From positions 1 to 37,511 of the forward strand of contig JAHFMZ010000005.1 of the NCBI GenBank assembly GCA_023267555.1: 37,511 nt of DNA. The letters are read 5' to 3'. Each line of letters starts with the position of its first letter. Position 1 is the first letter of the stretch. The notes beneath the pieces are model-generated. The model had not been told where the DNA came from and did no database searches. It saw only the letters and a program-made list of their open reading frames with translations. Shown piece by piece: positions 94-26,064 of the stretch. The stretch comes from a bacterium (GTDB lineage Bacteria > Patescibacteriota > Minisyncoccia > Phycocordibacterales > UBA5272). The position numbers were made by a program, and so were the translations under genes.

Positions 94-623
94 ACCAACC
101 TCGCTACAGCAGTAATAATAATAAAAGATCCAATAACATCAATCGTATAAGTAAGCACCACAAATTCCCAAAACTTTATCTTTGATATACCCATAAAAGT
201 CAAACCTATTTCATCTGGGAATGGAGAAGCGACAATCATCGCACCAAAAATTGCGAGCAAAATTTTTGTAACCTTTGCCTTTGTTGCTTTCTCCAACAAT
301 GCTTGTGCGTGATGTCCCAATTCGTGTAGCAAAACATCTTTGATAAAACGAAAAATTAATAAATCAGCCAGCAATCCACCAAAAGCAGCCAAAAGAGCGA
401 GGAAAATAAGTTGCCCCACCCCGACTGTAATCTTTGAAAACATAAGCACTGCTAGTCCAGCCGTAAATGAAAACGAATAAAGCATACCAGTTATAAAGGT
501 ATATAATACTTTATTTGTTTGAGACGCTGTCTCAACTAAATTAGAAAAAATAGTTAATCTACCAATAGCAAAAGCTGCTATGAATGTTAAAACCAAAATA
601 ATAGTATATTTATACCTACGCAT
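90..623 (-). CDS. Polytopic membrane protein, VTT/DedA-like small integral membrane protein
   Basis: Hydrophobic ORF with PFPDEIGL motif; start moved to MRRYKY (623) because upstream codons lie in a tRNA-trailer hairpin and a -10 box (TATACT) sits 6 nt before this ATG. Confidence 0.6.
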   Translation of the reverse strand: MRRYKYTIILVLTFIAAFAIGRLTIFSNLVETASQTNKVLYTFITGMLYSFSFTAGLAVLMFSKITVGVGQLIFLALLAAFGGLLADLLIFRFIKDVLLHELGHHAQALLEKATKAKVTKILLAIFGAMIVASPFPDEIGLTFMGISKIKFWEFVVLTYTIDVIGSFIIITAVARLV

Positions 624-645
624 CAAATAAGTATACAACAATCTA

Positions 646-810
646 TGCGGAAATGGTTGGATTTGGTCACGAGGTCTAGTTTTGTGAGTACTCAAAACAG
701 AAGACCTCGCGACCCCTATTCAAATCAACACAAAAGCAAAGCAGTTTGCTTTCTCATTTCTCACAAAATATATTCGCAAGCTCATTATTTTGCGGAAATG
801 GTTGGATTTG
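646..810 (-). repeat. tRNA-Ser trailer cassette: three hairpins and a 20-bp direct copy of the tRNA 3' end
   Basis: TGCGGAAATGGTTGGATTTG occurs at 646-665 and 791-810; hairpins 755-800, 733-752 and 657-728 (see findings). Confidence 0.75.
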
Positions 811-879
811 AACCAACGGACGGATTGCTCCGTCGCTTGTTTTCGAAACAAGTGCCTTAAACCACTCAGCCACATTTCC
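793..879 (-). tRNA. tRNA-Ser(CGA), no encoded CCA
   Basis: Cloverleaf GGAAATG...CATTTCC; anticodon loop in CTTGTTTCGAAAACAAG; long variable arm; discriminator G followed by CAA. Confidence 0.93.
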
Positions 880-935
880 TTGTAAAGGCGATTATAGCAC
901 AATTAAATTATCCACACATAACATAGCGTATATGC

Positions 936-941
936 TATAAT
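936..941 (+). promoter_or_regulatory. Extended -10 (TGCTATAAT), 6 nt upstream of the murA-like ATG; leaderless candidate
   Basis: TG-C-TATAAT-TATAAA-ATG. Confidence 0.65.
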
Positions 942-947
942 TATAAA

Positions 948-2465
948 ATGAAACAACAAGAAGAAATGACTAAAGTCGCAAACTTTATCAAGAAAACCCG
1001 CGAAGAACGTGGCCTCACTCAAGGAGATTTCGCCAAAGCTTTGAAAACAACTCAAAGCGCCGTAGCACGTATCGAGTCTGGCAAACAAAATGTAACTGTC
1101 GACCAACTTTCAAAAATAAGCGAGGCCTTGGGTCGACCAATTCTTTCTCTCACAAATACTTTAGATTTCAAAATAGAAGGTGGGCACAAATTATCTGGCA
1201 AAATAGAAACCAACACCTCAAAAAACGGCGCTGTAAATATAATGGTCGCCGCAATTATCAATCAAGGTACGACAACTCTTCGTAATATTCCTCATATTGA
1301 AGAAGTAAAACGTTATAAAGAACTTCTAGAAAGTCTCGGTGTCAAAATTCGTTGGACTCACAATGATACTGCTCTTGAAATCACTCCACCGAAAAAATTA
1401 ACCTTTTCAAAAATAAACAAAGAAGTTGCAGAAAAAATTCGCTCTTTCACTTTTGCTGGAGCCTTCATTCATTTTAGTAACAAATTTTCTCTCCCCCACT
1501 CTGGTGGTTGCAAAATGGGAGAACGCACTGTCGCATCACATAAATATGCCCTTGAACATATCGGTGTACATATAGAAACCAAAGAAAACTGCTATATTAT
1601 TTCCTATAAAAAATTAAAACCTGCCGAATTTATTTTATATGAATCATCAGACACCGGTGCCATCACCGCCCTCATCGCGGCTGCCAAAATAAATGGAAAA
1701 ACTGTCATCAAATGTGCCCCACCGAATTATCAAGTACAGGATGTATGTTTTTTGCTTGAAAAAATGGGAATAAAAATTGATGGCATAGGTACCAGCACTC
1801 TCACTGTGCACGGAAAAGAAATTATTAATGAAAATATTGAACATTACAACAGCGAAGACCCAATCGAAAGTATGTTCTTCCTTTCAGCTGCGATTGTCAC
1901 ACACTCTCGTCTCACTATCACCAGATGTCCGATTGATTTTCTAGAATTAGAATTAGAAAAATTAAAACATATGGGATTAAAATTTACCAAAAGTAAAATC
2001 TATCTCTCCAATAATTTACGTACCAAACTTGTAGACATCACCATACAACCATCCAAACTCGTCGCACCTCACGACAAGATTCACACTCAACCATATCCAG
2101 GGATAAATAATGATAACCTTCCTTTTTTCGTGCCAATTTGTTGTTTCGCAGAAGGACAAACTCTCATTCACGATTGGACTTGGGAAAATCGCGCGATTTA
2201 TTTTACAGAATTAAACCGTCTTGGTGCTGATATTAAATTGCTTGATCCACATCGCGCGCTTGTAACAGGTGTGAAAAAATTACGTGGTACACAAATCGTC
2301 TCCCCTCCTGCGCTTCGTCCAACAGCGATTATTTTGATTGCGATGCTCGCAGCCGAAGGCACATCAATGCTTCGAAATGTGTATTCTATAAAGCGTGGTT
2401 ATGCGGATATAGCGGAGAGATTAAATTCGATTGGAGCGAAGATAACTGTGTTGCGGGGGGTTTAG
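948..2465 (+). CDS. murA: N-terminal XRE-type HTH domain fused to MurA-like UDP-N-acetylglucosamine 1-carboxyvinyltransferase
   Basis: HTH: FIKKTREERGLTQGDFAKALKTTQSAVARIESGKQNVTVDQLSKI. MurA motifs: SKNGAVN, GGCKMGERTV (catalytic Cys), ENRA, ALRPTA, IKRGYADI. Confidence 0.9.
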   Translation: MKQQEEMTKVANFIKKTREERGLTQGDFAKALKTTQSAVARIESGKQNVTVDQLSKISEALGRPILSLTNTLDFKIEGGHKLSGKIETNTSKNGAVNIMVAAIINQGTTTLRNIPHIEEVKRYKELLESLGVKIRWTHNDTALEITPPKKLTFSKINKEVAEKIRSFTFAGAFIHFSNKFSLPHSGGCKMGERTVASHKYALEHIGVHIETKENCYIISYKKLKPAEFILYESSDTGAITALIAAAKINGKTVIKCAPPNYQVQDVCFLLEKMGIKIDGIGTSTLTVHGKEIINENIEHYNSEDPIESMFFLSAAIVTHSRLTITRCPIDFLELELEKLKHMGLKFTKSKIYLSNNLRTKLVDITIQPSKLVAPHDKIHTQPYPGINNDNLPFFVPICCFAEGQTLIHDWTWENRAIYFTELNRLGADIKLLDPHRALVTGVKKLRGTQIVSPPALRPTAIILIAMLAAEGTSMLRNVYSIKRGYADIAERLNSIGAKITVLRGV

Positions 2466-2474
2466 GATCTAAAA

Positions 2475-2765
2475 TTATAAATATAGCTTTTGGTATTTCT
2501 TCATTGCATCTTCTATAAGACTAAGTCCTTTTCCCTTTTTAGTTACACTATAAAGATTATCTTTTGTCTTTTTAACCATACCTTCTTCTATAAGTTTGTT
2601 TAACTTCAGAGTAAGCGTGCGCGTGGAAATACCTTCTAGCGTTCTCTCTAATTCACAAAAGCGTCTTGGGCCTTCAATTAAGAAATGCATAATTAACATT
2701 GTCCAAGTATCAGAAAGAAGTTTGGCAACTTTGGTTACTGGGCAAATAATATCTTTTGCTGACAT
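2475..2765 (-). CDS. HxlR-family winged-helix transcriptional regulator
   Basis: CPVTKVAKLLSDTWTMLIMHFLIEGPRRFCELERTLEGISTRTLTLKLNKLIEEGMV. Confidence 0.88.
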   Translation of the reverse strand: MSAKDIICPVTKVAKLLSDTWTMLIMHFLIEGPRRFCELERTLEGISTRTLTLKLNKLIEEGMVKKTKDNLYSVTKKGKGLSLIEDAMKKYQKLYL

Positions 2766-2789
2766 ATATATATTATACCACTATAAATG

Positions 2790-2803
2790 TACTTTACAAA
2801 GTA
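2790..2803. promoter_or_regulatory. Palindrome TACTTTACAAAGTA; candidate operator between divergent hxlR-like and LUD genes
   Basis: Perfect dyad between the two -10 boxes (2772-2777 minus, 2816-2821 plus). Confidence 0.5.
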
Positions 2804-2851
2804 AAGCATATTAGTTATACTAAAATAATTACAAATGTTAAAAAAATAAAT

Positions 2852-3469
2852 ATGGACTTTAAAACGATTGCAACCCAAGAATCTATAAATGAAACTTTTA
2901 AAAATCTAAAAAAGAATAACTTTGAACCAATTCAAGTGAACACAAAGGAGGAAGCTCTTTTGAAAATAAAAGAACTAATCCCCGCTGGAGCTTCTGTTAT
3001 GAATGGTGCGTCTGAAACATTAAGTGAAATAGGGTATATTGACCTTCTAAAAAGTGGTGACCACCAGTGGAACAATCTCCACAATGCAATTCTTGCCGAA
3101 AGCGATCCCGCAAAGCAGACACAACTCCGCCACAACGCAATCAATTCAGATTTTTATCTTGGAAGTGTGCACGCTCTGACTGAAACCGGAGAAATTGTAT
3201 TTGCTTCAAATAGTGGAAGCCAGTTACCTCACCTTGCATTCACTTCACAAAATATAGTGCTCGTAGCTGGTGCTCAGAAAATAACACCAACAATAGACGA
3301 AGCTTTCGCACGAATAGAGAAATATATAATCCCGCTTGAAGATGTACGTATGAAGAAAGTTTATGGATTTGGAACCCAGCATTCAAAAACTCTCATTCTC
3401 CGCAAAGAAAATTCAGCGATGGGTCGTAAAGTATACGTAATCGTAGTAAATGAATCTTTAGGGTTTTAA
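2852..3469 (+). CDS. LUD-domain (LutC/YkgG-like) protein
   Basis: MDFKTIATQESINETFKNLKKNNFEPIQV...GASVMNGASETLSEIG...GSVHALTETGEIVFASNSGSQLPHLAF; start set at MDFKT. Confidence 0.82.
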   Translation: MDFKTIATQESINETFKNLKKNNFEPIQVNTKEEALLKIKELIPAGASVMNGASETLSEIGYIDLLKSGDHQWNNLHNAILAESDPAKQTQLRHNAINSDFYLGSVHALTETGEIVFASNSGSQLPHLAFTSQNIVLVAGAQKITPTIDEAFARIEKYIIPLEDVRMKKVYGFGTQHSKTLILRKENSAMGRKVYVIVVNESLGF

Positions 3470-3472
3470 AAA

Positions 3473-3651
3473 CCACGGAGAGTCGGTCACAAAACTAATT
3501 CCTCACTTTGTTCGTCATAATTAGTTTCGCGACCCCTATTCGACTCTCCGACGAAAGCCAAGCAGTTGGCTTTCTTGGGGTCACAGAACAAAAATGGCTC
3601 AAACAATTTTGCTTGAGCTCATTTTTGTACCTGTGACCCCACGGAGAGTCG
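3473..3651 (-). repeat. tRNA-Glu trailer cassette: three hairpins and a 13-bp direct copy of the tRNA 3' region
   Basis: CCACGGAGAGTCG at 3473-3485 and 3639-3651; hairpins 3576-3641, 3553-3574 and 3477-3549. Confidence 0.75.
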
Positions 3652-3705
3652 AACTCCGCTTACCGGCATGAAAAGCCGATGTCCTAACCGATAGACGATG
3701 GGGCC
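3634..3705 (-). tRNA. tRNA-Glu(TTC), no encoded CCA
   Basis: GGCCCCATCGTCTATCGGTTAGGACATCGGCTTTTCATGCCGGTAAGCGGAGTTCGACTCTCCGTGGGGTCA. Confidence 0.95.
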
Positions 3706-3778
3706 AATTAGTTAAATACTATAACACATTTCTACACTTTTTCAAAATTAAAGAAAGTAATATATAATCTATTTGTAA

Positions 3779-3854
3779 GGGCGGTTAGCTCAGTTGGTAG
3801 AGCGCCACATTGACGTTGTGGATGTCAGAGGTTCGAATCCTCTATCGCCCACCA
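3779..3854 (+). tRNA. tRNA-Val(GAC), CCA encoded
   Basis: GGGCGGTTAGCTCAGTTGGTAGAGCGCCACATTGACGTTGTGGATGTCAGAGGTTCGAATCCTCTATCGCCCACCA. Confidence 0.95.
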
Positions 3855-4053
3855 AAAAATAAACGTAGTGAAATTTTTGTGGACGATAAGAAAGACACCT
3901 GCGTGTCTTTCGCGAGGATTCGAAGGGCCGCAGCGATGTTTTGCTAGCAAGCAAAACCGCGAGGGGCGGGCTGCGAAAAATTTTTGTGACGACAAAAATT
4001 TATTTGTAGCCGAATCTCCTGTAATTTTTGTGACCGACTCCTCTATCCCTACC
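3834..4053 (+). repeat. tRNA-Val trailer cassette (longer, more degenerate copy)
   Basis: Hairpins 3844-3887 and 3890-3911 (GAAAGACAC-CTGC-GTGTCTTTC); GAGGATTCG at 3914-3922; degenerate tRNA-3' copy CGACTCCTCTATCCCTACC at 4035-4053. Confidence 0.62.
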
Positions 4054-4064
4054 GACACCAAAAC

Positions 4065-4088
4065 AAAAACCAGCCCTTCCAAGCTGGT
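4065..4088 (-). terminator. Rho-independent terminator of the ParB-like gene
   Basis: Minus strand ACCAGC-TTGGAAGG-GCTGGT followed by TTTTTG. Confidence 0.75.
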
Positions 4089-4122
4089 TCCATAAAAAAT
4101 TTTTACATAAATCAAAAGAACA

Positions 4123-5094
4123 TTATTTTTTCTTCGCAATAAATGCTTTCAGTGCATCAATTCTGATCTGCAAAAATTCAACAACTTGTTTGGCTTGTGA
4201 CAATAAAGCCGGAGCTCTATCACCCAAACCATACGAGAGACAATCCATCTCGAACTTTGCAAACTCTTCTTCGGTCAAATTGCCAGATACTTGATTGGTG
4301 GCAGCAGTCAACTTCTTGAAGAAATTAAAGTACTCATCTCGGCGTTCACTAGGCCTTGAACGAACGTGTTTGCCACTGGCTATTCTGTAACGACGAGAAA
4401 CAATACTGATTGCTCTCTGCAACATAGCAGGAGAGCCCCCATTATTCATCTTGATAGCCTCTTCCAAAACAATCTTCTGTTCATTTTGCGCATTTCTGGC
4501 AAGTTCCACTCCCATTAAAAATGTCAGACCACTCCCTTTTTGGTCTATCAACTTCAATAAGTCTGGATGCAGATTGGTTAATGTCTTGTAAGGATTAGCC
4601 CATTGCTCAGACTTGCCATTTGTTTCTGCAAACATATCAACACTTCTGCCAATGAATCCTTTTGGATTTATTTTCTCCTGATGTTGTAAAAGAAGAGACA
4701 TCACTCTAACCAATTCAAAATGTTTGTGACCTCTCCGACACATATTTTCGGCAGATTGCCTAAGTACGCGTAACGGATCAAGCTGGCCGTCATACTCTTC
4801 TTTGAGGACTGTACAAAGAATCATTTTGGCACCGTTTTTCTTGCAAGCCCTCCACCTGGATTCACCAAAAAAAATATAATAAAAACCAGGTCTTCCTTTG
4901 GCTGGATTAACGAGGATGGCTTGCTCTTGGCCTATTTTGGCAATGGAAACACTTAACTCAGTGATGGCCTCTTCTTCAAAATCTATCCTTGATTGATGTT
5001 TATCGGGCAAGACCTTGTCCATCGCCAACAGAAGAGTGACTGGAGCTTCACTCTCTTCTTGAACAAATGCTACTTTCTTAGCCAATTTAGCCAT
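4123..5094 (-). CDS. ParB/RepB/Spo0J-type nuclease-domain protein
   Basis: RIDFEEEAITELSVSIAKIGQEQAILVNP...YYIFFGESRWRACKKNGAKMILCTV...RQSAENMCRRG; SD-like GGGAG upstream of ATG. Confidence 0.78.
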   Translation of the reverse strand: MAKLAKKVAFVQEESEAPVTLLLAMDKVLPDKHQSRIDFEEEAITELSVSIAKIGQEQAILVNPAKGRPGFYYIFFGESRWRACKKNGAKMILCTVLKEEYDGQLDPLRVLRQSAENMCRRGHKHFELVRVMSLLLQHQEKINPKGFIGRSVDMFAETNGKSEQWANPYKTLTNLHPDLLKLIDQKGSGLTFLMGVELARNAQNEQKIVLEEAIKMNNGGSPAMLQRAISIVSRRYRIASGKHVRSRPSERRDEYFNFFKKLTAATNQVSGNLTEEEFAKFEMDCLSYGLGDRAPALLSQAKQVVEFLQIRIDALKAFIAKKK

Positions 5095-10750: not shown

Positions 10751-12967
10751 CTACTTCTTTGTCGGAGCAAGAATCTCTTTTATATAAGCATCAACCTGAG
10801 ATGCATATTCTGGATTTGTTCTTTTTACTTCTTGAAGAATCTCAATGGCAAGAGAAATTTGTCTTGCTGTCACGGCTGCATTTAGAACATCAGCATCAAA
10901 TGGTACTGTTCCTCCATTTGAAATAATATATGCTCGTGCCTCTTTGTAAGCGTTAGCATAAACCGCAGTCATCAAATACCATTTCTTGGCATCTGGATAC
11001 TTTGGAGCCAAATCATAGGTCTCACGCCCTAATGCATAAGCTTGTGGATATTTCTTTTCCAATAAATAAGAACGAATTAAATCAAAAGAAATTAATTGCT
11101 TCGTTGGTGCGAGAGTGTGAGCAAGTGTAAGCATTTGTTCACCAGATGCTGGATCATTTATCCCGTTATAAAACATTCCATAAACAGAAAGCATACGAAC
11201 ATCCTCCTTGTTTGCAGGGAATGATGCAGTCACATCATCTTTTGCAGCTTGAACAAAACTACTGACTGTATTTACAATAACTTGCTTATCTTTTTGTGGT
11301 GTTGCGTCTGGAATCTTTACTTGTGTTAAACGTACAGCCATTTGAAGAAACTGTTCACGAGTCTCTTGACTACCTAATGTGTTAAGAGCAATAGCTTTGG
11401 TGAAAGATTCTTGTTGAAGCTTTACAACATCTACAAACGGCATAGTTTGTAAAAGTTGATTAGCACTCATACCACGAATAAGAAGAGTGTTCACAAGCCA
11501 AGGTCTATAATTAACATAATACAAAGTACCAACAAGAACAATACCAACAATTGGCATCCACAAAAACTTCAAGTTATCATCTTTTACCAAAGCATTTCCG
11601 TGATGTACATCGTTATCTCCTTGCGTGCGAACAACTATATATGCTAGAAGGGCAAAGAAAAGTATATAACTAGTGAGATTATCAAACACGAATATATTGT
11701 GGACAAAATATCCAGCAAGTGTCCCCGTTATGATAGCTCTTTCTCTCATAGGCATATCATTTTTCTTTCTCCACATAAGCCATAGAGCAACTACATACAA
11801 TGACAAATAAGAAACAAGGCCGACAATACCATCAGCAATCAACCAATCAAAAAATACATCGTGAGATCTGTCATACCAAGCTTCAAGTCCCCAAAATTTC
11901 TCTGCATTATATTTACGAGCAAATACATAACTAAAATTATCTTGTCCATAACCAATTATCGGTCGCTCGAGCCAAGCACTATAACTAAGTTTCCAAATAT
12001 AAATACGACTCGACGTAGTCCCATCACTGATAGAGATATGTGCAAGACGAGCTAAAGTTGGAGACGATTGTACAAAGTTACTATTCTTAAATGCAAATAT
12101 TGACCCAATTGCAATAATCATAGCCACTAATGTAGCAACAAAAACCTTTCGTGCGTGACCTCTCTCGTGCCAAGCGATAAGACCAAGAGCAACAACAATG
12201 CCACCAACCAAACCAATCATTGTGCCACGAGTACCAGAGTAAAATAATGCAATTAAGTTAAGAACGATAAGTGTCGGATACCACCAAGCTTTCTTCGGTG
12301 TCTTTGTTTGTGACCAAAGAAGACCAGCAATACAAGCAGAGAAAAGACAGAAAATCGCAAAGTATGCAGAATTACCAATTGTTGCATCCAATCTATTTTC
12401 ACTCATATGAATTGGAAAACGTGCAGCAAACCACGAAGCCATTGCTGGAAACTTCTCAGAAAATATATAACCACTTGCCCCAAACAATTGTCCATAAGCA
12501 TAAACAAGGACAGCAACGTTTGCAACAACAAATGCTTTAAGCATATTTTTCCATTCTCCTGCCGTAGATATCATTGCAGTCAAAACCACAAAATAAGCAA
12601 AGAAATGAATATGTCCGACAAAACCTTCCATTCTTTCAAAATTACTCCATATACTTTTTTGAGTATCGACTCCGAAAATATCAGCAACCAAAAGAACGGC
12701 CATAAATATCGCAAATGCAATCGTAAGCGGGGATTTCTTTATCTTGATGCGATATTTTGCATCGTGAAGTGCAAGAATGATCCATCCAGCAAAAGCAATT
12801 TCTACAAGAATACGAAATAGAAGATTTTTACCTGTAATAAATGGAAAATAAAGCCCCGCTGTCCCGTGTGCCAGAACATCAAATGTTCCACCATCAGCAA
12901 CATAAAGAGCTAGAAACGGAATAATAACTAAACACACCAATACAATTTTTTTGATAATATTTTGCAT
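10751..12967 (-). CDS. O-antigen ligase/polymerase (Wzy/WaaL-like) with C-terminal TPR-like region
   Basis: Polytopic; YSGTRGTMIGLVGG and PIIGYGQDNFSYVFARKY...WYDRSHDVFFDWLIADGIVGLVSY typical of O-antigen ligase families. Confidence 0.88.
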   Translation of the reverse strand: MQNIIKKIVLVCLVIIPFLALYVADGGTFDVLAHGTAGLYFPFITGKNLLFRILVEIAFAGWIILALHDAKYRIKIKKSPLTIAFAIFMAVLLVADIFGVDTQKSIWSNFERMEGFVGHIHFFAYFVVLTAMISTAGEWKNMLKAFVVANVAVLVYAYGQLFGASGYIFSEKFPAMASWFAARFPIHMSENRLDATIGNSAYFAIFCLFSACIAGLLWSQTKTPKKAWWYPTLIVLNLIALFYSGTRGTMIGLVGGIVVALGLIAWHERGHARKVFVATLVAMIIAIGSIFAFKNSNFVQSSPTLARLAHISISDGTTSSRIYIWKLSYSAWLERPIIGYGQDNFSYVFARKYNAEKFWGLEAWYDRSHDVFFDWLIADGIVGLVSYLSLYVVALWLMWRKKNDMPMRERAIITGTLAGYFVHNIFVFDNLTSYILFFALLAYIVVRTQGDNDVHHGNALVKDDNLKFLWMPIVGIVLVGTLYYVNYRPWLVNTLLIRGMSANQLLQTMPFVDVVKLQQESFTKAIALNTLGSQETREQFLQMAVRLTQVKIPDATPQKDKQVIVNTVSSFVQAAKDDVTASFPANKEDVRMLSVYGMFYNGINDPASGEQMLTLAHTLAPTKQLISFDLIRSYLLEKKYPQAYALGRETYDLAPKYPDAKKWYLMTAVYANAYKEARAYIISNGGTVPFDADVLNAAVTARQISLAIEILQEVKRTNPEYASQVDAYIKEILAPTKK

Positions 12968-13025
12968 ACTTAATTTACTCTATTAAATAATATGCCTTTA
13001 GTGTATCAAAAGTAGCAACTAATGC

Positions 13026-13892
13026 CTAAATCCTCACCCAATCGTCCGGAATTACATTAAAATGTGGGTCAGGCTCTCTATTTACCCATTTTTTTGGAGC
13101 AATTACTATTTTATTTGGATTTTGATTAAGCCAAGCTCCCCACCAACTAAAAGATGAGTTAGCGATAATATTATTCGCACAAGTTGCCATTAACATCAAT
13201 TCCTCATAATCTTTAAATTCTCCATTTGAAATATAATTAAAATTATTTTGTTCACCAAATTCCTTTTTAACCCATTCTATATCATCAGAAAAAAAATAAA
13301 AAATGGGTGATTCTATTTTTGCATTCATCAAAACAATCGCTTTTTCATAATATTCTTTAGAATATACCCCAAAATAATTGTTGGTCGCTTTATCATTAAC
13401 ATAATCCCCTCGTCTAATATGTATTGATACACTTTTAATTTTATCAATTTTATTTTTCTCTAATATAAAATCCTCAGATTCAAATTCTTTTTTCAAAGTA
13501 AACTCTTTACGAATTTTATTTGCAATAGGTAAAAAGTTTTTCTCCGACTGAAAATACCCTTCTATATATTTATGATTTTTTTTAAAAAACTTTGGATCGT
13601 AATCTGTATAATATTTCTTTAAAATTCTTTGATTAAAATATCTCAATGCTTTTGAAAAAATACCGAAACGATTTCTATATCTTTTTACTTCTTCTAAAGA
13701 AGCAACACTGCCAGAAATATTGAATGGAAATAATCTGTATTTTCTGGGTGTATCAGAATTCATATGCCGAGGATCTTCATAACCTGTCGCATCAAATTTT
13801 AATTCTTCATTATTTTTAAAAGCCACAAAAAGCCCTGTCGCATATTGAAACATTTGATTCCCAAGTCCACCTTTTAATTTAACTACAATCAT
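13026..13892 (-). CDS. Alpha-1,2-fucosyltransferase (GT11)
   Basis: MIVVKLKGGLGNQMFQYATG, SIHIRRGDYV, NSSFSWWGAWLN. Confidence 0.92.
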   Translation of the reverse strand: MIVVKLKGGLGNQMFQYATGLFVAFKNNEELKFDATGYEDPRHMNSDTPRKYRLFPFNISGSVASLEEVKRYRNRFGIFSKALRYFNQRILKKYYTDYDPKFFKKNHKYIEGYFQSEKNFLPIANKIRKEFTLKKEFESEDFILEKNKIDKIKSVSIHIRRGDYVNDKATNNYFGVYSKEYYEKAIVLMNAKIESPIFYFFSDDIEWVKKEFGEQNNFNYISNGEFKDYEELMLMATCANNIIANSSFSWWGAWLNQNPNKIVIAPKKWVNREPDPHFNVIPDDWVRI

Positions 13893-14776
13893 AAAATAAT
13901 ATTTTTCTCCTCTGGAATAAAAAGAAGATTGTCATATTCATAATTCTCTTTGACAATATGTGGGGAAATAAAACCTTCTATGCTCATTTCATAAGGCTTA
14001 TATTTTTTACTAACGAGAAGCTCTATCGATTTTTTACAATTATCTGACCACCCTTCTCCTCCAGCTACTTCAAGAGTTACAATTGGTCTAATGTCTTCCA
14101 ATAAATATTTCATACCGTTAAGAATAGCATATTCATACCCTTCGGCATCGAGCTTGATAAAATCTGGTTTTATATTTTTTTCTTTACAATAACTATCCAA
14201 TGTCAAAGTTTGAACATAAACAGTTTTAGCTTTTTTATTCAAAGTAGAACCATCTTTATGAGCTGTATTATAAGCCCCATAACCAGGACCGTAATCTTTA
14301 AAAGAAATCTGCTCTCTTGTATCAGACACGGCATTATTATTTAACGTAACATTTAAAAGTTTTTTGGTGTTCTTTTTTAAAATCTCATATGTCCACGGAG
14401 TTGGTTCAAAACTATGCACTTGTCCGTTTTCTCCAATCAAAGATGACGACAACATTGAATAAAATCCGACGTGGGCCCCGACGTCAAGAACAATATCTCC
14501 CTCTTTCAAGAATCTAAGCAGAAAATTAGTTAAATTAGCCTCACAATATCCATAATAATAAAATGTATTTCCTTCTGGAAGATAAGATATCATTTTGCTT
14601 CCCCAAAGTGTCTTAAAAGAAATCTTATATGGTTTTATATGTCCAATCAAAGCCAAAATATAATAAAAGAAAGTACGAACAGGTACCTTTATCAATCTTT
14701 TTACACGACTAAGTGGTCTTAGATTTTCTCTTTCAATAATCTTTTTTATTATTGAGTTTCTTAAATCATTTTTCAA
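13889..14776 (-). CDS. FkbM-family methyltransferase
   Basis: DIVLDVGAHVGFYSMLSSSLIGENGQVHSFEPTPWTYEIL; DFIKLDAEGYEYAILNGM. Confidence 0.9.
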   Translation of the reverse strand: MKNDLRNSIIKKIIERENLRPLSRVKRLIKVPVRTFFYYILALIGHIKPYKISFKTLWGSKMISYLPEGNTFYYYGYCEANLTNFLLRFLKEGDIVLDVGAHVGFYSMLSSSLIGENGQVHSFEPTPWTYEILKKNTKKLLNVTLNNNAVSDTREQISFKDYGPGYGAYNTAHKDGSTLNKKAKTVYVQTLTLDSYCKEKNIKPDFIKLDAEGYEYAILNGMKYLLEDIRPIVTLEVAGGEGWSDNCKKSIELLVSKKYKPYEMSIEGFISPHIVKENYEYDNLLFIPEEKNIIL

Positions 14777-15942
14777 AGAGTTTTTAAAAAAGTATCAATT
14801 TCTTTCTCTACATCTTCTACTCTAATATTTTTCACACACGGAGCACTTTCTCCAAGTTTTAAATTTTTGGAACAAGCCCAATTATCATTTTTACATTTCA
14901 TATTTTTATCAAAAACAATTCTATTCTTTTCAAGATTTCCGTAAGGGAAAAATCTACCGAAATGCCCTCCTCCAATCACACAAATAGTTGGCACCTCTAT
15001 AGCTGCTGCCAAGTGAGTAATTCCCGTGTCACTACCAAAATAAAAAATAGATTGTTTAAGTAAATGTATTATAGTTGGCAAATCTGTCTCTCCGGAAATA
15101 TCTATGGCTTTATTTTTAAAATCCATTTTTCCCAGAACATCACGAATAAGCTTTTTTTCTCCTTTACTTCCACAAAAAACTGGTGTGATTTCTTTTTCTA
15201 CAAAGTAATCTGCTATTTTTGCAAATTTTTCAATCGGCCATATTTTAAAAGTAGTACCAGATCCAGGAACAATAACAACATAGGATTTTGGAATTATTTT
15301 GTATTTTTCCATAATCTTTTTTGCTTCATTATCGGAGAAAAGATTAATATCTATGGTCGGGAAACAAACATCAGCTTTTTGTCCAATTATCTTTTCTGCT
15401 ATATACACATTTTTATCTATTTCAGTTACTATTTCTTCTGGAACAGTAATAAGCTTTGTATATATACTATTATTTTTAAGTTTTTCACTTTCGAGCGAAG
15501 CAGTACAATCACCATTTACACCAATAATCACAAGAGCTTTGGTAAGCTTCATCATAAAGTCTCCCATAGTTTCTCTTGAAAAAGTTGGCTGTACAGCAAT
15601 ATCATAGCCTCTCTTTTTCAAATCAATTAAAAATCTTCTACGATAAAAAACATTATCACTAAATTTTTTTGCGTCATACCAAATAATGTTTTCAAAATCT
15701 TTAAGCAAAGGTCTAAGACTTTGGAAAAGTTTAGAGACAACTAATGTAATTTCTGCATCTTCATAGGCTTTTCTATAACATTTAAGTGTAGGATAAAAAA
15801 TAATATAATCCCCCAATGTATCTTTACGCAAAATAAGTACTCTTTTTTTAAAATGAGATTCAGATTGGACAAAAAAACATTCCAACGCTATTGCTGTATC
15901 TATGATATTTTTTATAATTCTACGTAACATTTTATTTAGCAA
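14773..15942 (-). CDS. Glycosyltransferase family 9 (heptosyltransferase-like)
   Basis: RVLILRKDTLGDYIIFYPTLK; VVIVPGSGTTFKIWPIEKFAKIADYF; YFGSDTGITHLAAAIEVPTICVIGG. Confidence 0.9.
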   Translation of the reverse strand: MLNKMLRRIIKNIIDTAIALECFFVQSESHFKKRVLILRKDTLGDYIIFYPTLKCYRKAYEDAEITLVVSKLFQSLRPLLKDFENIIWYDAKKFSDNVFYRRRFLIDLKKRGYDIAVQPTFSRETMGDFMMKLTKALVIIGVNGDCTASLESEKLKNNSIYTKLITVPEEIVTEIDKNVYIAEKIIGQKADVCFPTIDINLFSDNEAKKIMEKYKIIPKSYVVIVPGSGTTFKIWPIEKFAKIADYFVEKEITPVFCGSKGEKKLIRDVLGKMDFKNKAIDISGETDLPTIIHLLKQSIFYFGSDTGITHLAAAIEVPTICVIGGGHFGRFFPYGNLEKNRIVFDKNMKCKNDNWACSKNLKLGESAPCVKNIRVEDVEKEIDTFLKTL

Positions 15943-16651
15943 TAACTTTTATTTCGAAAGCATATATTTCTGGACTTGGTTTATGATAAGAACTAGCTGT
16001 AACTTTATTCCAAAACTTTTTATTTAATTTATACAAACTTAATAAAAATTTCTTCAACATTTGAGCTAGAAAACCGTGACGCATTAAATCGTGCGGATCA
16101 ACAAAATTAATCTCGTCAAAACCAGCTGACTTCAAAACATAAATAATACTGCCCGATGTAAAAATTGTAGTGTGAGTAAAATCTTCAAACATCCAATACG
16201 AACCAGTGTTTGACTGTGCATTTGGAGTAGAAAGATATAGCTCCCCTTTTTCTGTCATCGTACTTTTTATTTGTTTTAAAGTCTCAATAATTTTATCTTT
16301 TGAAATATGTTCTATAACGTGGGTCATCAAAATAAAATCAAATTTTTTATTATTAGTTGTAAAAAAATCGTCCAAAGAACTTATTTGTTCTACATTTAAA
16401 CCATTTTTTTTACAAACAGAAACTGCTTCTTCTGAAATATCAATTCCTTGAATATTATTATAGCCGAAAGATTTTAATATATTTAATATATAACCAAATC
16501 CACAACCAATATCCAAAATAGAAACATTTTTATCTTTTGGTAAAACAGATTTAAGAGACAGAGGCATAACATAATTAGACATATAATTCTCTTCTACATT
16601 TCTATTAGAGAAATATTTCTTAACTTGCGTTTGGGAATTTAAATTATTCAT
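15932..16651 (-). CDS. Class I SAM-dependent methyltransferase
   Basis: VSILDIGCGFGYILNILKSFGYNNIQGIDISEEAV; FDFILMTHVIEHI. Confidence 0.88.
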   Translation of the reverse strand: MNNLNSQTQVKKYFSNRNVEENYMSNYVMPLSLKSVLPKDKNVSILDIGCGFGYILNILKSFGYNNIQGIDISEEAVSVCKKNGLNVEQISSLDDFFTTNNKKFDFILMTHVIEHISKDKIIETLKQIKSTMTEKGELYLSTPNAQSNTGSYWMFEDFTHTTIFTSGSIIYVLKSAGFDEINFVDPHDLMRHGFLAQMLKKFLLSLYKLNKKFWNKVTASSYHKPSPEIYAFEIKVIAK

Positions 16652-16652
16652 A

Positions 16653-17240
16653 TTATTTATGTTCTATAAACCTTATGAACTTTGCTGGATTTCCTGCAAC
16701 AATTGCATAATCTTCCACATCACTGGCAACAACAGCGCCAGCCCCAACCACACTATGTTTGCCTATTGTCACACCACCCAAAACAATAGCACCACTAGCA
16801 ATCCAAGCTCCCTCTTTAATATGTATTGGTTTTTCAGTTATTTGCTGATGACGATCAAGATTAAAAACATTATAATTATGAGCTCTCGCTAATATACTCA
16901 CATTTGTTCCAAAAAAAACATAATCATCAATAGTTATCTTTCCAACAGTATCACCAGCATTAAGCAAACTGTCCACCAAATAAATATTAGATCCAAGAAA
17001 AATATTGTGATGCCCGTTAAAAACACGAAAACCTTTTTCGCTATAAACAAAATCACCTTTGTGAGTTATTTTACTCAAATGCTCTTCGGAAGATATTCTG
17101 TCTCTTTCCATAATAATTTTATCAGTCCAATCTTTTCCTCCATTCCTTCTCACAAAAGCATACCACTTACGTTTAATCATTCTTAAAAATGAATATATTG
17201 GGGTAGGAAGTATGGTTTTGTATAGACTTATGTTTTTCAT
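16653..17240 (-). CDS. Left-handed beta-helix acyltransferase (sugar O-acetyltransferase type)
   Basis: Hexapeptide repeats: IKEGAWIASGAIVLGGVTIGKHSVVGAGAVVASDVEDYAIVAGNPAKFIRF. Confidence 0.9.
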   Translation of the reverse strand: MKNISLYKTILPTPIYSFLRMIKRKWYAFVRRNGGKDWTDKIIMERDRISSEEHLSKITHKGDFVYSEKGFRVFNGHHNIFLGSNIYLVDSLLNAGDTVGKITIDDYVFFGTNVSILARAHNYNVFNLDRHQQITEKPIHIKEGAWIASGAIVLGGVTIGKHSVVGAGAVVASDVEDYAIVAGNPAKFIRFIEHK

Positions 17241-18160
17241 ATTTTTAAATACATATTAATTCTATTTATAATCTTTTCAAAAAAAGTTTTATAAAATATT
17301 TTTTCAAATAAAAAATCATCAGCTTCTTCATTTACAATTATTGAATCCGGATGAATAATATTCCCTAGCGATTCCGTAGGAATATTATTTGAAATATTAT
17401 TTTCTTTTTTCGTATTAGTAGAATTCTCCCCAAAACCAATATTTGAAACAAGATTTACATTTGGAGCGATAGACACTCCGTCATTATTATATATAGCATA
17501 AGCCCAACGACCAGCCCAAGTATTCATTCTATTATCATAAAGATTATCAAAAAGTCTTATCATAAATTTTTGAATTCTTTTATCATTAAAAATAGTCTCA
17601 ATTTTATTATTTTTCTTAAACTCTGGATATGTTTTCATATCCATATCATATTCCCTCCACGCTCTCCTCCAAGTTGCCCAACCCCAGATATTTGGAAAAT
17701 TTGAAAAAAAATAACTAGCATTTCCGTATTTTCTACCAAATTGGAAATTATCTCCTGATATCATTTTTACTTTCTCAACATTTTTATATTTCTCTAATAG
17801 TTCCTGACAAAAAACAAAAAACGATTCATTTGGCAAACAATCATCTTCTAAAATTATTCCCTGTTCTTCATTTTTAAAAAACCAACTAATTCCATAAGAC
17901 ATATTAACCTTACAACCAAGATTTGTATCAGAATATTTTCTGACAACTTCACATTGCCAATCTATATTTTCTGTTATTCTTCTTGTTTCCTCACATATAT
18001 TTTTCTCTTCATTTTTATTTAATCTTGGACCATCAGCAACAATGTACAGCTTTGTTGGCTTTATTTTCCTGATAACTTCAAAAACCTGCTTGGTAGTATC
18101 AGGGCGATTAAAGATAACAAACAATATTGGTACAGGAAATTGTGTGTTATTTTGGTCCAT
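17237..18160 (-). CDS. Family-2-like glycosyltransferase
   Basis: PVPILFVIFNRPDTTKQVFEVIRKIKPTKLYIVADGPR; GIILEDDCLPNESFFVFCQELLEKY; NIWGWATWRRAW. Confidence 0.82.
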   Translation of the reverse strand: MDQNNTQFPVPILFVIFNRPDTTKQVFEVIRKIKPTKLYIVADGPRLNKNEEKNICEETRRITENIDWQCEVVRKYSDTNLGCKVNMSYGISWFFKNEEQGIILEDDCLPNESFFVFCQELLEKYKNVEKVKMISGDNFQFGRKYGNASYFFSNFPNIWGWATWRRAWREYDMDMKTYPEFKKNNKIETIFNDKRIQKFMIRLFDNLYDNRMNTWAGRWAYAIYNNDGVSIAPNVNLVSNIGFGENSTNTKKENNISNNIPTESLGNIIHPDSIIVNEEADDFLFEKIFYKTFFEKIINRINMYLKI

Positions 18161-18262
18161 AAAAGAAAGGCTTTTAAGGAATATCTAGTATATTCCTACA
18201 AGTTTAGTAATTTTATCATTTATTACACATCCTAACCAGTTGCTGACTATTACAACTAAAAC

Positions 18263-19105
18263 TTAGTTGTACAAATGTTTGGACAAAGACTCGACATTAC
18301 ACCCTCTAATATTAATTCTTGGAAAAGAAAAAATGTCCGATGAAGAAGTTCCGAGCAATCCAGTATTTTCATAAGCAGATATAAAACCAAGTTCTTTTAT
18401 TAAAAATTTAGAATTGTCGTCAAAATCATATCTTCCACCAAAGGGGTAAGCAAAATGTAATATTTTTTTGTTAATAATATCCTCTAGTATTTTTTTACTT
18501 GTTTCTATTTCTGATAATTGTTTATCTTTTGAAAAATCTGAAAGTCTTACGTGATTATGTGTATGAGCTCCTATTTCTATTAATTTATTATTTGCCAAAA
18601 TTTTAATTTCCTCTAAAGATAAAAATATCGCCCTATCGTCTTCTTTGTATTTCATATCCCAAGCGAAAGAAGCTCTTTTGCCTATCTCGGAAGTAGTAAT
18701 AAAAATTGTCGCCGGAGTATTATATTTTTCCAAAATTGGCAAAGCATTAATTAAATTATCTCTATATCCATCATCAAAAGTAACACAGGCTTCATTTCCT
18801 TTTAAAGATTTATTTTTGATTCTATTTACAAGCTCACTTAAAGAAATAGGTTCATAAACTTTATTTATATATTTAATATGTTCTTCAAAAGTTTCCGGAG
18901 AAACTACTAATTTGATTGGATCATTTAATACCTTATCAACACGATGATACAACAACACTGGGACAGTTTTCCTAGTTACTTTATTTATACGATTTAAAAA
19001 TCTATTTTTTAATTTAGCAACAAAAAAATAAATAAAATATAAAACGCTGAAAATACGTAATTTAACTAATGTCGGTTTTATCTTTTTTAAAAGTGATCTT
19101 ATCAT
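18263..19105 (-). CDS. Polysaccharide deacetylase family protein (NodB fold)
   Basis: VPVLLYHRVDK; EACVTFDDGYRDNLINALPILEKYNTPATIFITT; IGAHTHNHVRLS; HFAYPFGGRY. Confidence 0.92.
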   Translation of the reverse strand: MIRSLLKKIKPTLVKLRIFSVLYFIYFFVAKLKNRFLNRINKVTRKTVPVLLYHRVDKVLNDPIKLVVSPETFEEHIKYINKVYEPISLSELVNRIKNKSLKGNEACVTFDDGYRDNLINALPILEKYNTPATIFITTSEIGKRASFAWDMKYKEDDRAIFLSLEEIKILANNKLIEIGAHTHNHVRLSDFSKDKQLSEIETSKKILEDIINKKILHFAYPFGGRYDFDDNSKFLIKELGFISAYENTGLLGTSSSDIFSFPRINIRGCNVESLSKHLYN

Positions 19106-19827
19106 TTTGTTGCTTTAACAGTTATTATAAGAGGAAAATTTCTATCATCAGTGTGAAAAAGTTTTTTTGGTGTATCTTCTTCTGAAAGCCCCGCATAAAA
19201 ATATAATCCCACTCTCGCATTCCCTTTTGAGTTTATAGAAACCTTTTCTTTTTTTATTTTTTTCTCAAACAAAAAAAGAGCGGAAGCGGTAGTGAATCTC
19301 CAATAATCCCCTTTTTCACCAGAAGCACAATCAACTCGACTTATTGATGGCATAGTAACTAGTAATGTTCCACCAGATTTGAGTGTTCTATAACATTCCG
19401 AAATAGCAGCATCAACATCATCAATAAATTGTAAAACTTGAGTCAAAATAATGCAATCAAATGTATTATCTGCAACTTCAGTCAAATTTCTCAAATCAGA
19501 AATAAGAGTTGCATTTTTATTTCCTTTTTCAATATCAAGAACCACACTTTCAGTTATATCATCCCCCCCATACTTTTTTGTATACACATTATTAAGCAAC
19601 TCAAGACATACTCCGTGAATATTTTTCTTATTTTCATCAAGAAACTTTTCTATATAATATCTATCTAGTGGTTTACCTCTATCAAATCCATAAATATCGC
19701 TAACGGGTTTTGTTGAGGTTGAAAAAAAGTAAATACTTTTATTTTTAATAATATTTCTATATATAGATTTATAAATACCTCTTAAGAAAGTAAAAACCGC
19801 TGGATATTTTTTCAAGAAATTTTTCAT
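19102..19827 (-). CDS. SAM-dependent methyltransferase
   Basis: NTFDCIILTQVLQFIDDVDAAISECYRTLKSGGTLLVTMPSISRVD. Confidence 0.82.
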   Translation of the reverse strand: MKNFLKKYPAVFTFLRGIYKSIYRNIIKNKSIYFFSTSTKPVSDIYGFDRGKPLDRYYIEKFLDENKKNIHGVCLELLNNVYTKKYGGDDITESVVLDIEKGNKNATLISDLRNLTEVADNTFDCIILTQVLQFIDDVDAAISECYRTLKSGGTLLVTMPSISRVDCASGEKGDYWRFTTASALFLFEKKIKKEKVSINSKGNARVGLYFYAGLSEEDTPKKLFHTDDRNFPLIITVKATK

Positions 19828-20609
19828 ATATTTTTTATAAATTTTGGGCTTATAGCTATATAATTAGAATACACGAAATTATCTAATCTAGGATTATAAT
19901 CTCGTATTTCTAAATATTTCGGCATTATTTTAGCTATTTTAAAACCAAGAGGTAATAATAAACTATAAAAGTCTAGCAAACTGACGTGAGAATCCAAATC
20001 TGCCCCACCATATTCAAATTGAATAAAATCAATGAAATCTGCATTTAAATATTCCCCAAATCCAGTTAAAACATTTAATTCGTAGCCTTCAACATCTATC
20101 TTTAGTAAATTAATATGTTTTATATTTTTAGATTGTATGTATTTATTAGCTCTTCTCAATTCAATCGTTTCTTCCATATTCATTTGCAAATTATGAAAAT
20201 CAAGATTCCTTTTATACAAAGAAGTTAAACCACCTTTATTTTCAGTCTTATAAACTACCGCGGATTCTTCGGTCTTTGATAAACCAAAATTGTTCAAAAT
20301 TGTCTGTTTATTATCTTTAAACTTTAATTGCAAATCCATAAAACAACTTTTCTGTGGCTCAAATATATGAAGAGAATATTCTGCTTCATTCAACTTATCA
20401 GATAGAAGCTTTGAATAAGTTCCGACATTTGCTCCAACATCAAAAATAACAGGGGCTATCGATCTAGTGCTGTCTATAAATTGATTTATAAAATTTTCTT
20501 CACCATTATCGGCAAACAAACTGTTACCACTATTATCTAAATGATAAATTATACTCAACAATTTACCAATTATCTTCTCTTTTATTTTATTCTGATTTTT
20601 AATTTTCAT
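19824..20609 (-). CDS. FkbM-family methyltransferase (second copy)
   Basis: APVIFDVGANVGTYSKLLSDKLNEAEYSLHIFEPQKSC; NLLKIDVEGYELNVLTGFG; start set at MKIKNQNK because the longer ORF overlaps the next gene. Confidence 0.86.
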   Translation of the reverse strand: MKIKNQNKIKEKIIGKLLSIIYHLDNSGNSLFADNGEENFINQFIDSTRSIAPVIFDVGANVGTYSKLLSDKLNEAEYSLHIFEPQKSCFMDLQLKFKDNKQTILNNFGLSKTEESAVVYKTENKGGLTSLYKRNLDFHNLQMNMEETIELRRANKYIQSKNIKHINLLKIDVEGYELNVLTGFGEYLNADFIDFIQFEYGGADLDSHVSLLDFYSLLLPLGFKIAKIMPKYLEIRDYNPRLDNFVYSNYIAISPKFIKNI

Positions 20610-20610
20610 A

Positions 20611-22545
20611 TTAATTTCTTTTACAAAAAAGATAATAATTATTCTCAATATATTCTGTCTCTTCATCAAAAACTTTTGTATACCTTTCTGTAATATTCTG
20701 CACATCTTCAGCAAAATGAAAATCACTACTTGATTCTTGATAAGCAAGAAGTAAATATTTCGCGTCAAAATAATTAACATCTTTTATATAATTTTGCATA
20801 GCTTCATTCGATTCTGATAAAGCCCAAGTACTTATAAATAGATCAACTGAACCAACTAATGTATTTAATTTCCCTAAAATATTTTTATTTAAAGGCACTA
20901 AGTTTATCAGTCCATCTTTTATACAAGCTTGTTCCCCATCCACTATATTAATAGACTTTGCCCCAAAAATGACACTCAAATATATCGCTTGTATATAAGA
21001 AAAGACAGGTAAGTCTATAATAGTATATGTCACCTTATTATTAAGGGCTTTATATATTTTTGCCATATTTCCATACCCCCCACCAACTTCAATAATAGTA
21101 TCAAAATCCTTTTCATTAGTCTTAGTTTCTTTGAAAAATTTAACAAAATGGTATAAATGATGAATATTATTCCCTGATGTAATATATTCAGCATCATTCA
21201 AAAGAGGCTTACCGATATTATATTCCCGAAGAATATCCTTTGCCTTTTCTTTAGAGAAATATTCTGAAATAAGATTTTTCTGGAGATTTTTCCATTTATC
21301 AAATGTATACATAAACATTGTTCTTTTAATAAGAGAATGTCTCAAAAAGGAAAAAGTAAAATTGTTTATAAAAAACTCTTCTATACCCAACATAATTTTA
21401 TACCACTCTGGAGAAACAAAATCTGAGAAATCATATCCATCTTTGTTATCTAGATATTTTTTTCTCATCTCAAAATATGCCTTTACAAAATCTTTTTTAT
21501 TTACACATCTCACGAACAAAAAAATTATAGATGAATAAGAATAGCGATATATTTTTGCTACTATTTTGTTTATTTTCTGTATAGATAATACTACTTTTTT
21601 CTTAAGGCGATATTTAATTCTAAGATAAAATCCTTTTAAACTATTTCTAGGAATGTATATATTTTTTGGTAAATTAATATTTAAAGGTTTATGAACCATT
21701 CCAAAAGTCTCTTCATAATTTATTTTTAAAACATTTGGTCTATCTTTTATTTCCTCTAAAAGATTTCTGGTGAAATCACTACAATCAAATCTACAAATAA
21801 AATCGAGAGTCTCTTTGTTAAAAATATAATAATGTTCTAAAAAAATATCTCTCCAGTTGTAATTCATTTTTCCATTATTATATTCCCTTAAGAAATAAGA
21901 TTCTTTGAAGTTTACCCGATGTAAGTATTCCGCATTTGGGCAAACATACACACTTAACCCTGCACATAAAAAACGCCAGGCAAATCCTTGAGTATCATAA
22001 CCGTGAGAAATTGGATACCCTCCCATTTTATTAAACGCACTTTTTGTATACATAAAATTGACATAGGCAGGGATAAAACTTACGTCTTTGGATAAAAGTG
22101 CTGATAACGATATTCTTTTGTCAATAAAAGGCGAAACATCTACGTGATTGATATCATTAATATCTTTTCCATTAAACTTTATTGATCGATGTATAGTGGC
22201 TCCGTCACATTTTTTTTCTTTTATAAAAGCAAGCATCTTTAAAAGAGAACCTTGTGGTAAAAGATCATCACTATCTAGACAAAAAATAATTTCTCCTTCC
22301 GACTTTTCTACTGCTGTATTTCTAGTAGCCCCTCCCCCTTTATTTTTATTATGATAAAAGAGTCTAATCTCTTTATGTTCATCAGCAAGTTTCTGCATAA
22401 TCTCTTTAGTGTTATCAGTTGAACCATCATCAACCATCACTATTTCAAAATTATCTAACCCTTGAACAAAACAAGAGCTCACAGACTCTTTAAGTGTGTC
22501 ACTACAATTATAACAAGGAATAATGATTGATAATTCTGGTTTCAT
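20611..22545 (-). CDS. Bifunctional GT2 glycosyltransferase plus putative sugar O-methyltransferase (NanM-like)
   Basis: N-terminus SIIIPCYNCSDTLKESVSSCFVQGLDNFEIVMVDDGSTDNT; C-terminus FDTIIEVGGGYGNMAKIYKALNNKVTYTIIDLPVFSYIQ. Confidence 0.82.
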   Translation of the reverse strand: MKPELSIIIPCYNCSDTLKESVSSCFVQGLDNFEIVMVDDGSTDNTKEIMQKLADEHKEIRLFYHNKNKGGGATRNTAVEKSEGEIIFCLDSDDLLPQGSLLKMLAFIKEKKCDGATIHRSIKFNGKDINDINHVDVSPFIDKRISLSALLSKDVSFIPAYVNFMYTKSAFNKMGGYPISHGYDTQGFAWRFLCAGLSVYVCPNAEYLHRVNFKESYFLREYNNGKMNYNWRDIFLEHYYIFNKETLDFICRFDCSDFTRNLLEEIKDRPNVLKINYEETFGMVHKPLNINLPKNIYIPRNSLKGFYLRIKYRLKKKVVLSIQKINKIVAKIYRYSYSSIIFLFVRCVNKKDFVKAYFEMRKKYLDNKDGYDFSDFVSPEWYKIMLGIEEFFINNFTFSFLRHSLIKRTMFMYTFDKWKNLQKNLISEYFSKEKAKDILREYNIGKPLLNDAEYITSGNNIHHLYHFVKFFKETKTNEKDFDTIIEVGGGYGNMAKIYKALNNKVTYTIIDLPVFSYIQAIYLSVIFGAKSINIVDGEQACIKDGLINLVPLNKNILGKLNTLVGSVDLFISTWALSESNEAMQNYIKDVNYFDAKYLLLAYQESSSDFHFAEDVQNITERYTKVFDEETEYIENNYYLFCKRN

Positions 22546-23483: not shown

Positions 23484-23484
23484 A

Positions 23485-24417: not shown

Positions 24418-24428
24418 ATTTTTACTTA

Positions 24429-25991: not shown

Positions 25992-26058
25992 TTATATGCT
26001 TATATATTTATACCATATTTAAGCAAAAGTCTAAAAGACCATAAATTTAAAAAAATGG

Positions 26059-26064
26059 TAGAAT
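26059..26064 (+). promoter_or_regulatory. Extended -10 (TGGTAGAAT) 6 nt before ATG; leaderless candidate
   Basis: TGG-TAGAAT-AGAAAA-ATG. Confidence 0.55.

Follow-up and report, generated by a model that had tools for sequence, protein, structure and literature searches.

Genomic islands that occupy transfer RNA (tRNA) genes, or tDNA islands, are mapped by a displaced 3' fragment accompanying a regenerated gene (PMC4383910). The T-loop is a known target region of integrases, as the attB site of mycobacteriophage Ms6 illustrates (PMC1762012). The attC sites of integrons are defined as folded hairpins whose outer arms pair, which contain asymmetric unpaired bases and whose terminal structure varies (PMC2727003), and Tycheposons have been listed among phage satellites (PMC11389934). 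Here we describe a family of cassettes, ∼130–260 bp in size, mostly without genes and built of hairpins, that follow tRNA genes in the window, by which is meant the whole 37,511-nt stretch analysed (assembly GCA_023267555.1, contig JAHFMZ010000005.1, positions 1 to 37,511). The window belongs to the genome of a tiny, uncultured member of the Patescibacteriota, which comprises 514 kb in 24 contigs and is 93% complete. The best reading of these cassettes is that they are non-autonomous micro-islands of tRNA and transfer-messenger RNA (tmRNA) genes that work like integron cassettes; they look like a previously undescribed mobile element, re-tailored to each target.

Read in the tRNA direction, a cassette begins with the 3' part of the tRNA itself (X: T-loop, 3' strand of the T-stem and 3' strand of the acceptor). 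Hairpin A starts inside this acceptor strand and includes its complement (acc'), and is followed by hairpin B, a 9-bp stem with a CTGC loop. Next is T', complementary to the T-arm; an unpaired GAATA(G/C) separates it from hairpin C (GGGTCG...GTGACC), and the cassette closes with X'', in which the tRNA 3' end is copied in direct orientation. The host tRNA is left intact, and this second, displaced copy, spanning C56 to roughly the discriminator, marks the far end of the cassette. Between the tRNA and the mobile core (hairpin C) a copy of the 3' half of the tRNA lies inverted, interrupted by hairpin B; it pairs with the displaced copy to give a long imperfect DNA hairpin with the GAATA stretch as an unpaired bulge. 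The initial annotation of the window had reported such a three-hairpin element behind three of its four tRNAs, and every element that it quoted was confirmed base by base.

Gain and loss of cassettes at tRNA genes

The gain and loss of cassettes is precise; cassettes also stand in tandem arrays, and some of them carry genes. The initial annotation had proposed comparing tRNA loci with and without a cassette, and such a comparison, in which orthology was judged by the downstream flank, turned up filled and empty versions of the same site among congeners. The tRNA-Trp gene is empty in the genome of the window (G000) and filled in a congener (G003), and the same intergenic stretch and downstream gene, which by eye reads like GAPDH, follow in both. 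The alignment of the flanks starts 2 nt after the displaced copy in G003 and 10 nt after the empty tRNA in G000, and scores 253 against a shuffle maximum of 23. The tRNA-Thr-TGT gene is filled in the own genome and empty in three congeners, and Ile-TAT and Lys-TTT supply further empty and filled pairs. Across four congeners occupancy varies widely at the loci examined; it is because relatives carry inserts at other tRNAs, or none, that the cassettes have the look of a mobile element.

The ends of the inserts are sharp. Of 54 copies whose X'' is good, 44 have a duplicated block that begins at C56 of the T-loop and 9 have one that begins at the next base. The modal right end of the block is the tRNA 3' end; one cassette boundary thus lies in the T-loop, between T55 and C56. 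The junction is mostly GAC^C, and GTT occurs only on the tRNA side. Behind the tRNA-Val(GAC) gene of G003 two identical cassettes stand in tandem, followed by a decayed third end (L047:155-600), and tandem units recur at several order-level loci. Several loci hold cargo downstream of the regenerated tRNA and ahead of the final X''. The Glu-CTC locus of G003 has a GmrSD-type protein there, and the Phe locus of G045 an uncharacterised open reading frame (ORF). In G014 the His locus has a cupin and the Ser-ACT locus several ORFs, and a Glu-type array at a contig edge has three ORFs, one of them for a PemK/MazF-like toxin.

Cores are common to different tRNAs and arms are local. Among 47 short-core cassettes from 14 genomes (cores starting CGGGTC included), 40 pairs have near-identical inner hairpins C, and 39 of these pairs join different tRNAs (19 within one genome and 20 between genomes). 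Within the near-identical pairs the match of T' is 10.86 of 12 bases to its own tRNA and 8.07 to that of the partner. Copies with identical cores differ in their hairpin B stems, which indicates that the parts of a cassette are exchanged as modules. The Ser-GCT cassette may be an intermediate: it hardly differs from the Ser-GGA cassette, and although it has an X and X'' of its own, its T' still fits Ser-GGA better. Inheritance of isoacceptor-specific lineages was considered and rejected, given that only 1 of the 40 near-identical pairs lies at the same tRNA and that core similarity at the same tRNA across genomes is not in excess (452 of 1000 shuffles as high). That a conserved core jumps between tRNA genes, with its arms re-copied from each new target during insertion and nearly every tRNA and tmRNA gene colonised undamaged, falls in our judgement a little short of an even chance.

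The arms alone could have arisen as a mutational by-product, in which fold-back template switching at terminator hairpins copies the tRNA end with no dedicated enzyme or function. Local arms would follow directly, as would the tRNA-Phe of the own genome, which has only a perfect palindrome running from the acceptor strand through the terminator, and coreless units in which T' is joined directly to T'' (L109). Left without explanation are the CTGC hairpin B and hairpin C core found across the order, the near-identical cores at different tRNAs and in different species, and the single fixed left boundary at C56, and we regard this origin as very unlikely.

In sum, empty and filled sites, tandems, cargo, sharp ends and shared cores give good support to the suggestion, made at the outset, of a non-autonomous mobile element that targets tRNA 3' ends and has arms to match. 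The further suggestion that this element rewrites its arms holds as a pattern, in the better fit of T' to its own tRNA than to that of its partner, but not as a mechanism.

Fit to the tRNA, covariation and distribution

The fit of the arms is far from random. When tRNAs of the own genome were permuted over the downstream regions, 0 of 20,000 permutations matched the observed fit for T', for the direct copy or for the acceptor complement, the corresponding z values being 9.3, 12.2 (X'') and 7.2 (acc'). A CTGC-loop hairpin with at least 8 of 9 bp stands behind 23 of 36 tRNAs of the own genome (shuffle mean 0.01). Over 38 aligned cassettes, 92.7% of cells pair against 75.2% after shuffling and at most 45.7% when columns are slid by 1–3, and covariation, seen in all three helices, is 0.517 against 0.188 in the control. 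In 26 copies taken from the order's other families, pairing is 92.0% and covariation 0.477. The stems thus covary strongly, with many double changes in both outer helices (hairpin B and T'/T''), and the CTGC loop and the GAATA-GGGTCG...GTGACC core are constant; hairpin C sets four invariant pairs beside a variable inner stem. The early impression of stems that follow the host tRNA around a fixed loop and core, in a manner hard to obtain by chance, is well founded, and so is its statement that these are not plain terminator trailers: such a trailer would be a single hairpin and T-run unrelated to the tRNA sequence, and the arms here are tRNA-specific.

Covariation of this kind would also be expected of a structured trailer RNA encoded by the host, in which the tRNA primary transcript runs into hairpins A–C and these guide the tRNA through 3' processing, folding or quality control; arms that pair with a tRNA would co-evolve with it. 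The constant loop and bulge, the fixed G-U pairs of hairpin C, the spread across an order and one other class, and the presence behind tmRNA with a fitting arm all suit such an RNA. The G-U balance of the outer helices suits it less. In the varying helices G-U and A-C pairs stand at 14:6 in hairpin B (∼2.3:1) and 38:25 in T'/T'' (∼1.5:1), neither a significant departure from 1:1, whereas the acceptor and T stems of the tRNAs at the same loci, counted by position, give 75:6 (∼12:1; difference p=0.012 for hairpin B and 3.5e-6 for T'/T''). This weak excess relative to their own tRNA stems is why the helices look like DNA-level features, and it favours hairpin B and T'/T'' being palindromes kept at the DNA level. 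In hairpin C 144 of 813 cells are G-U or U-G against 9 that are A-C or C-A, with two nearly fixed G-U positions, so that a role of one specific strand, as single-stranded DNA or as RNA, would fit there.

Other observations also count against a trailer. Congeners have or lack the cassette at the same tRNA gene, and large islands can part tRNA and trailer. Hairpin A occupies the acceptor strand that the tRNA needs, and the palindromes would compete with tRNA folding. In the Glu cassette of the window, a terminator-like stem within hairpin A comes before hairpins B and C. A trailer would have no need of a full acceptor copy at the far end, yet many cassettes have one, and in others it has decayed. 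A 3'-maturation trailer, one of the initial suggestions, is accordingly weakened by patchy occupancy, intervening islands, competing palindromes and low G-U tolerance, and we judge it unlikely. Another, a tRNA-mimic non-coding RNA, is not supported: there is no Rfam match, and the far arm holds only the part of the tRNA that begins at C56, not a cloverleaf. With the covariance models of Rfam 15, only tRNA and small-subunit ribosomal RNA reach gathering scores in the window, and no relevant match appears at positions 600–4100 at E<=1. A TnpB/omega-RNA-like guide was set aside because the target of the displaced copy would then be the intact tRNA beside it, and an H/ACA-like guide and a ribozyme because no feature supports them.

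The covariance-model search envisaged by the initial annotation revealed many further tRNA-linked copies in genomes taken one per species and mostly metagenome-assembled (MAGs). The own genome has 40 tRNAs (ARAGORN and Rfam), ∼24 of them with a cassette; those without include Ile-GAT, Cys, Trp, Gln, Gly-CCC and Glu-CTC. Cassettes were found in 16 of 16 genomes of the genus, and divergent relatives in 26 of 45 genomes from the rest of the family and order. Of 64 matches in five congeners, 40 lie within 120 nt downstream of a tRNA, among the tRNAs listed (expected 0.18). At the order level, 13 of 15 matches away from contig edges follow an ARAGORN tRNA, and one (L108) follows a tRNA-like 3' end without an ARAGORN call. 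A cassette with a fitting arm also follows a tmRNA (L189), recognised from its sequence beside an SmpB-like ORF and not by a search, and another (L185; G012:C5, ∼81–85 kb) follows a tRNA-Asn missed by ARAGORN that apparently contains an intron, with an intron-like insert in its anticodon region.

Farther afield, four genomes of a phylum-wide sample match at E<=1e-4, namely the own genome and three others, all three with tRNA-adjacent matches and one of another class. Distant copies often have a longer, two-hairpin core (GGCGGAGTCATR...GACGAGCC, then GGGGTCG.GA...TCGTGACC), a form common among order-level relatives that the Val cassette of the window resembles. A pattern scan of GTDB gave 60 matches; MAGs with the same core are labelled Candidatus Nomurabacteria, Paceibacterota and, in one case, Gracilibacteria, and a good part of the matches, in unrelated taxa (Rhodobacteraceae and others), are probably due to chance. 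A strict DNA pattern had no match in IMG/VR.

Islands, candidate enzymes and a proposed mechanism

Larger elements meet the cassettes at the same tRNA ends. Where an island with a large serine recombinase is present, its junction falls on the tRNA 3' end, ahead of hairpin A, and the entire cassette is displaced by 4.1 kb (G006 Leu), 12 kb (G003 Asn) or 23 kb (G003 Tyr). These juxtapositions, with islands abutting tRNA 3' ends and cassettes at their far ends, would suit a view of the cassettes as right-end remnants of larger integrative islands, akin to cis-mobilizable elements (CIMEs), that have lost their integrases, the hairpins being ordinary attachment-site arms. The position of the island junction, before hairpin A, means instead that the island split an existing tRNA–cassette pair. 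Fitting arms and near-perfect stems would not persist in remnants, and the own genome, with its ∼24 cassettes, has no match to the large serine recombinase domain PF07508, so that islands are not needed for cassettes. Descent from such islands we place at the low end of plausibility.

The islands were located at L184:290-1991, at L219 and L218 (G003 tRNA-Tyr) and at L220 and L192 (G003 tRNA-Asn). Their recombinase gene (545–572 aa) is convergent into the tRNA 3' end, and by inspection of ORFs their cargo includes type I restriction and metal-efflux-like genes. Several further serine recombinase genes lie less than 1 kb from tRNAs in G012, G013 and G014.

In the 16 genomes of the genus, four protein families were searched as candidate movers. 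All 16 have a tyrosine recombinase, in most as a single copy; PF07508 is found in 12, reverse transcriptase in 8 and Y1 transposase in 5. Reverse transcriptase and Y1 transposase are therefore rejected as universal movers, being absent from 8 and 11 of the 16, and the own genome has no match to Y1 transposase either. Its single tyrosine recombinase, of 316 aa (L209:1129-2079), is encoded away from the cassettes and best matches XerC/XerD, reaching 106 bits against a cut-off of 265 for the integron integrase.

On balance we lean, with some reserve, towards non-autonomous mobile DNA cassettes that insert into tRNA and tmRNA genes, with a T-loop boundary and a folded-DNA recombination site. The folded hairpin would then be the site of recombination, recognised by its shape as is integron attC. 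Universality among the four families makes the tyrosine recombinase the proposed user of such a site; the sole universal candidate, XerC/D-like, might cut in the T-loop. During or shortly after insertion, fold-back copying of local tRNA sequence, perhaps through template switching or hairpin correction, could bring the arms into agreement with the new tRNA.

Several points weigh against this account. No circular form and no active transposition were seen. Cassettes encode no recombinase, and the simple ones have no room for a gene. Since every genome can be expected to have a Xer-type protein, its link to the cassettes is one of elimination among four families. Site-specific recombination leaves target-matched arms unexplained, and a rewriting step has therefore to be assumed. 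The nearly fixed G-U pairs of hairpin C would suit an RNA, and since serine-recombinase islands insert at the tRNA 3' end, some of the cargo is no evidence for cassette mobility.

The judgement of novelty follows from the lack of a match in Rfam 15 and of any description of the element in the part of the literature searched. If the account is true, the small genomes of Patescibacteria (the candidate phyla radiation, CPR) carry an undescribed class of mobile DNA for which tRNA genes are universal docking sites and which adapts its own sequence to each tRNA target. Such a class would connect the islands at tRNA genes with the folded-DNA logic by which integrons work, would open the origin of structure-based recombination sites to testing, and would explain where some CPR defence and toxin genes are stored. 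Cassettes also account for spurious short ORFs and palindromes beside tRNAs in these genomes.

Cassettes of the window and comparison with known systems

Positions of the tRNA genes and cassette parts in the window
Feature	Position	Strand	Remarks
tRNA-Ser(CGA), host gene	792..879	-	X (T54 to acceptor 3' strand) 794-812
Ser hairpin A	755..800	-	acceptor 3' strand (acc), loop, complement (acc')
Ser hairpin B	732..753	-	CTGC loop
Ser T'	719..729	-	complement of T-loop and T-stem 3' strand
Ser hairpin C	665..715	-	GGGTCGCGA...TCGTGACC, unpaired GAATAG before it; covariance model 95.4 bits
Ser X''	646..665	-	20-nt displaced tRNA 3' copy, start C56
tRNA-Glu(TTC), host gene	3633..3705	-	X 3635-3653
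Glu hairpin A	3577..3640	-	acceptor and flank paired to downstream complement; terminator-like stem 3597-3618 inside
Glu hairpin B	3553..3574	-	GAAAGCCAA-CTGC-TTGGCTTTC
Glu T'	3539..3550	-	complement of own T-arm, 12/12
Glu hairpin C	3485..3535	-	covariance model 95.5 bits
Glu X''	3473..3485	-	13 nt remaining of displaced copy
tRNA-Val(GAC), host gene	3779..3854	+	X 3832-3850
Val hairpin A	3844..3887	+	
Val hairpin B	3890..3911	+	GAAAGACAC-CTGC-GTGTCTTTC
Val T'	3914..3924	+	
Val core, longer two-hairpin form	3925..4011	+	hp1 3925-3967, hp2 3968-4011; 42.9 bits
Val degenerate displaced copies	4011..4053	+	4011-4023 after GTAGCC, 4036-4053 after GTGACC
tRNA-Ile-GAT	35557-35632		fourth window tRNA, without cassette

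The two displaced copies of the Val cassette are two successive cassette ends, and the Glu cassette folds as single-stranded DNA at -28.2 kcal/mol (z=-7.3). Also in the window, an EPSP-synthase/MurA-type enzyme is fused to an N-terminal HTH_3 DNA-binding domain (948-2465, +). An HxlR-type regulator divergent from a LUD-domain protein (2475-3469) adjoins the Glu cassette, and a ParB N-terminal-domain protein (4123-5094, -) adjoins that of tRNA-Val. Mechanical ORFs across tRNA and cassette at 645-860 and 3825-4139 (such as MVGFEPT... and ...WWAIEDSNL) would be spurious proteins if annotated. Positions 12001-28000 have a G+C content of 0.285–0.316 against 0.36–0.38 towards both window ends, and possibly hold horizontally acquired genes.

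Among the closest described systems is the tDNA island. Like these islands, the cassettes take a tRNA or tmRNA gene as target, leave a regenerated gene with a displaced 3' fragment at the far end (as in the 54 copies above), and are precisely present or absent at orthologous targets (Trp, Thr-TGT, Ile-TAT and Lys-TTT); their break in the T-loop is like the T-loop attB sites of integrases. They differ in measuring only about 150 bp and being usually geneless, in occupying over half of the tRNA genes of the own genome, and in joining an inverted copy of the target to one core found behind many tRNAs. They also have no integrase gene, and for this reason are not classed as tDNA islands proper.

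With integron attC cassettes they share a long imperfect hairpin that bears short conserved boxes, is asymmetrically unpaired close to the break point and ends in a highly variable hairpin; tandem arrays and, in some, single accessory genes are further points in common. Integron cassettes are joined at the recombination triplet G^TT/AAC, whereas the junction here is GAC^C; and the cassettes are anchored at the T-loop of each tRNA rather than at one attI, are mostly geneless and have tRNA-specific arms. No IntI was found in the comparison, and on this and the junction they are not classed as integron cassettes.

Two further groups share single traits. Repetitive extragenic palindromes and bacterial interspersed mosaic elements (REP/BIME), with their Y1 (TnpA-REP) transposases, and miniature inverted-repeat transposable elements (MITEs) are likewise short, geneless, hairpin-forming and non-autonomous; Y1, however, is absent from 11 of 16 genomes including the own, and the cassettes sit at tRNA and tmRNA ends with arms that are copies of the target. 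Tycheposons and similar satellites are tRNA-anchored, as the cassettes are, but are kilobase-sized carriers of flexible genes with gene sets of their own, and we know of no tailored hairpin arms in Tycheposons or other tRNA-integrating satellites.

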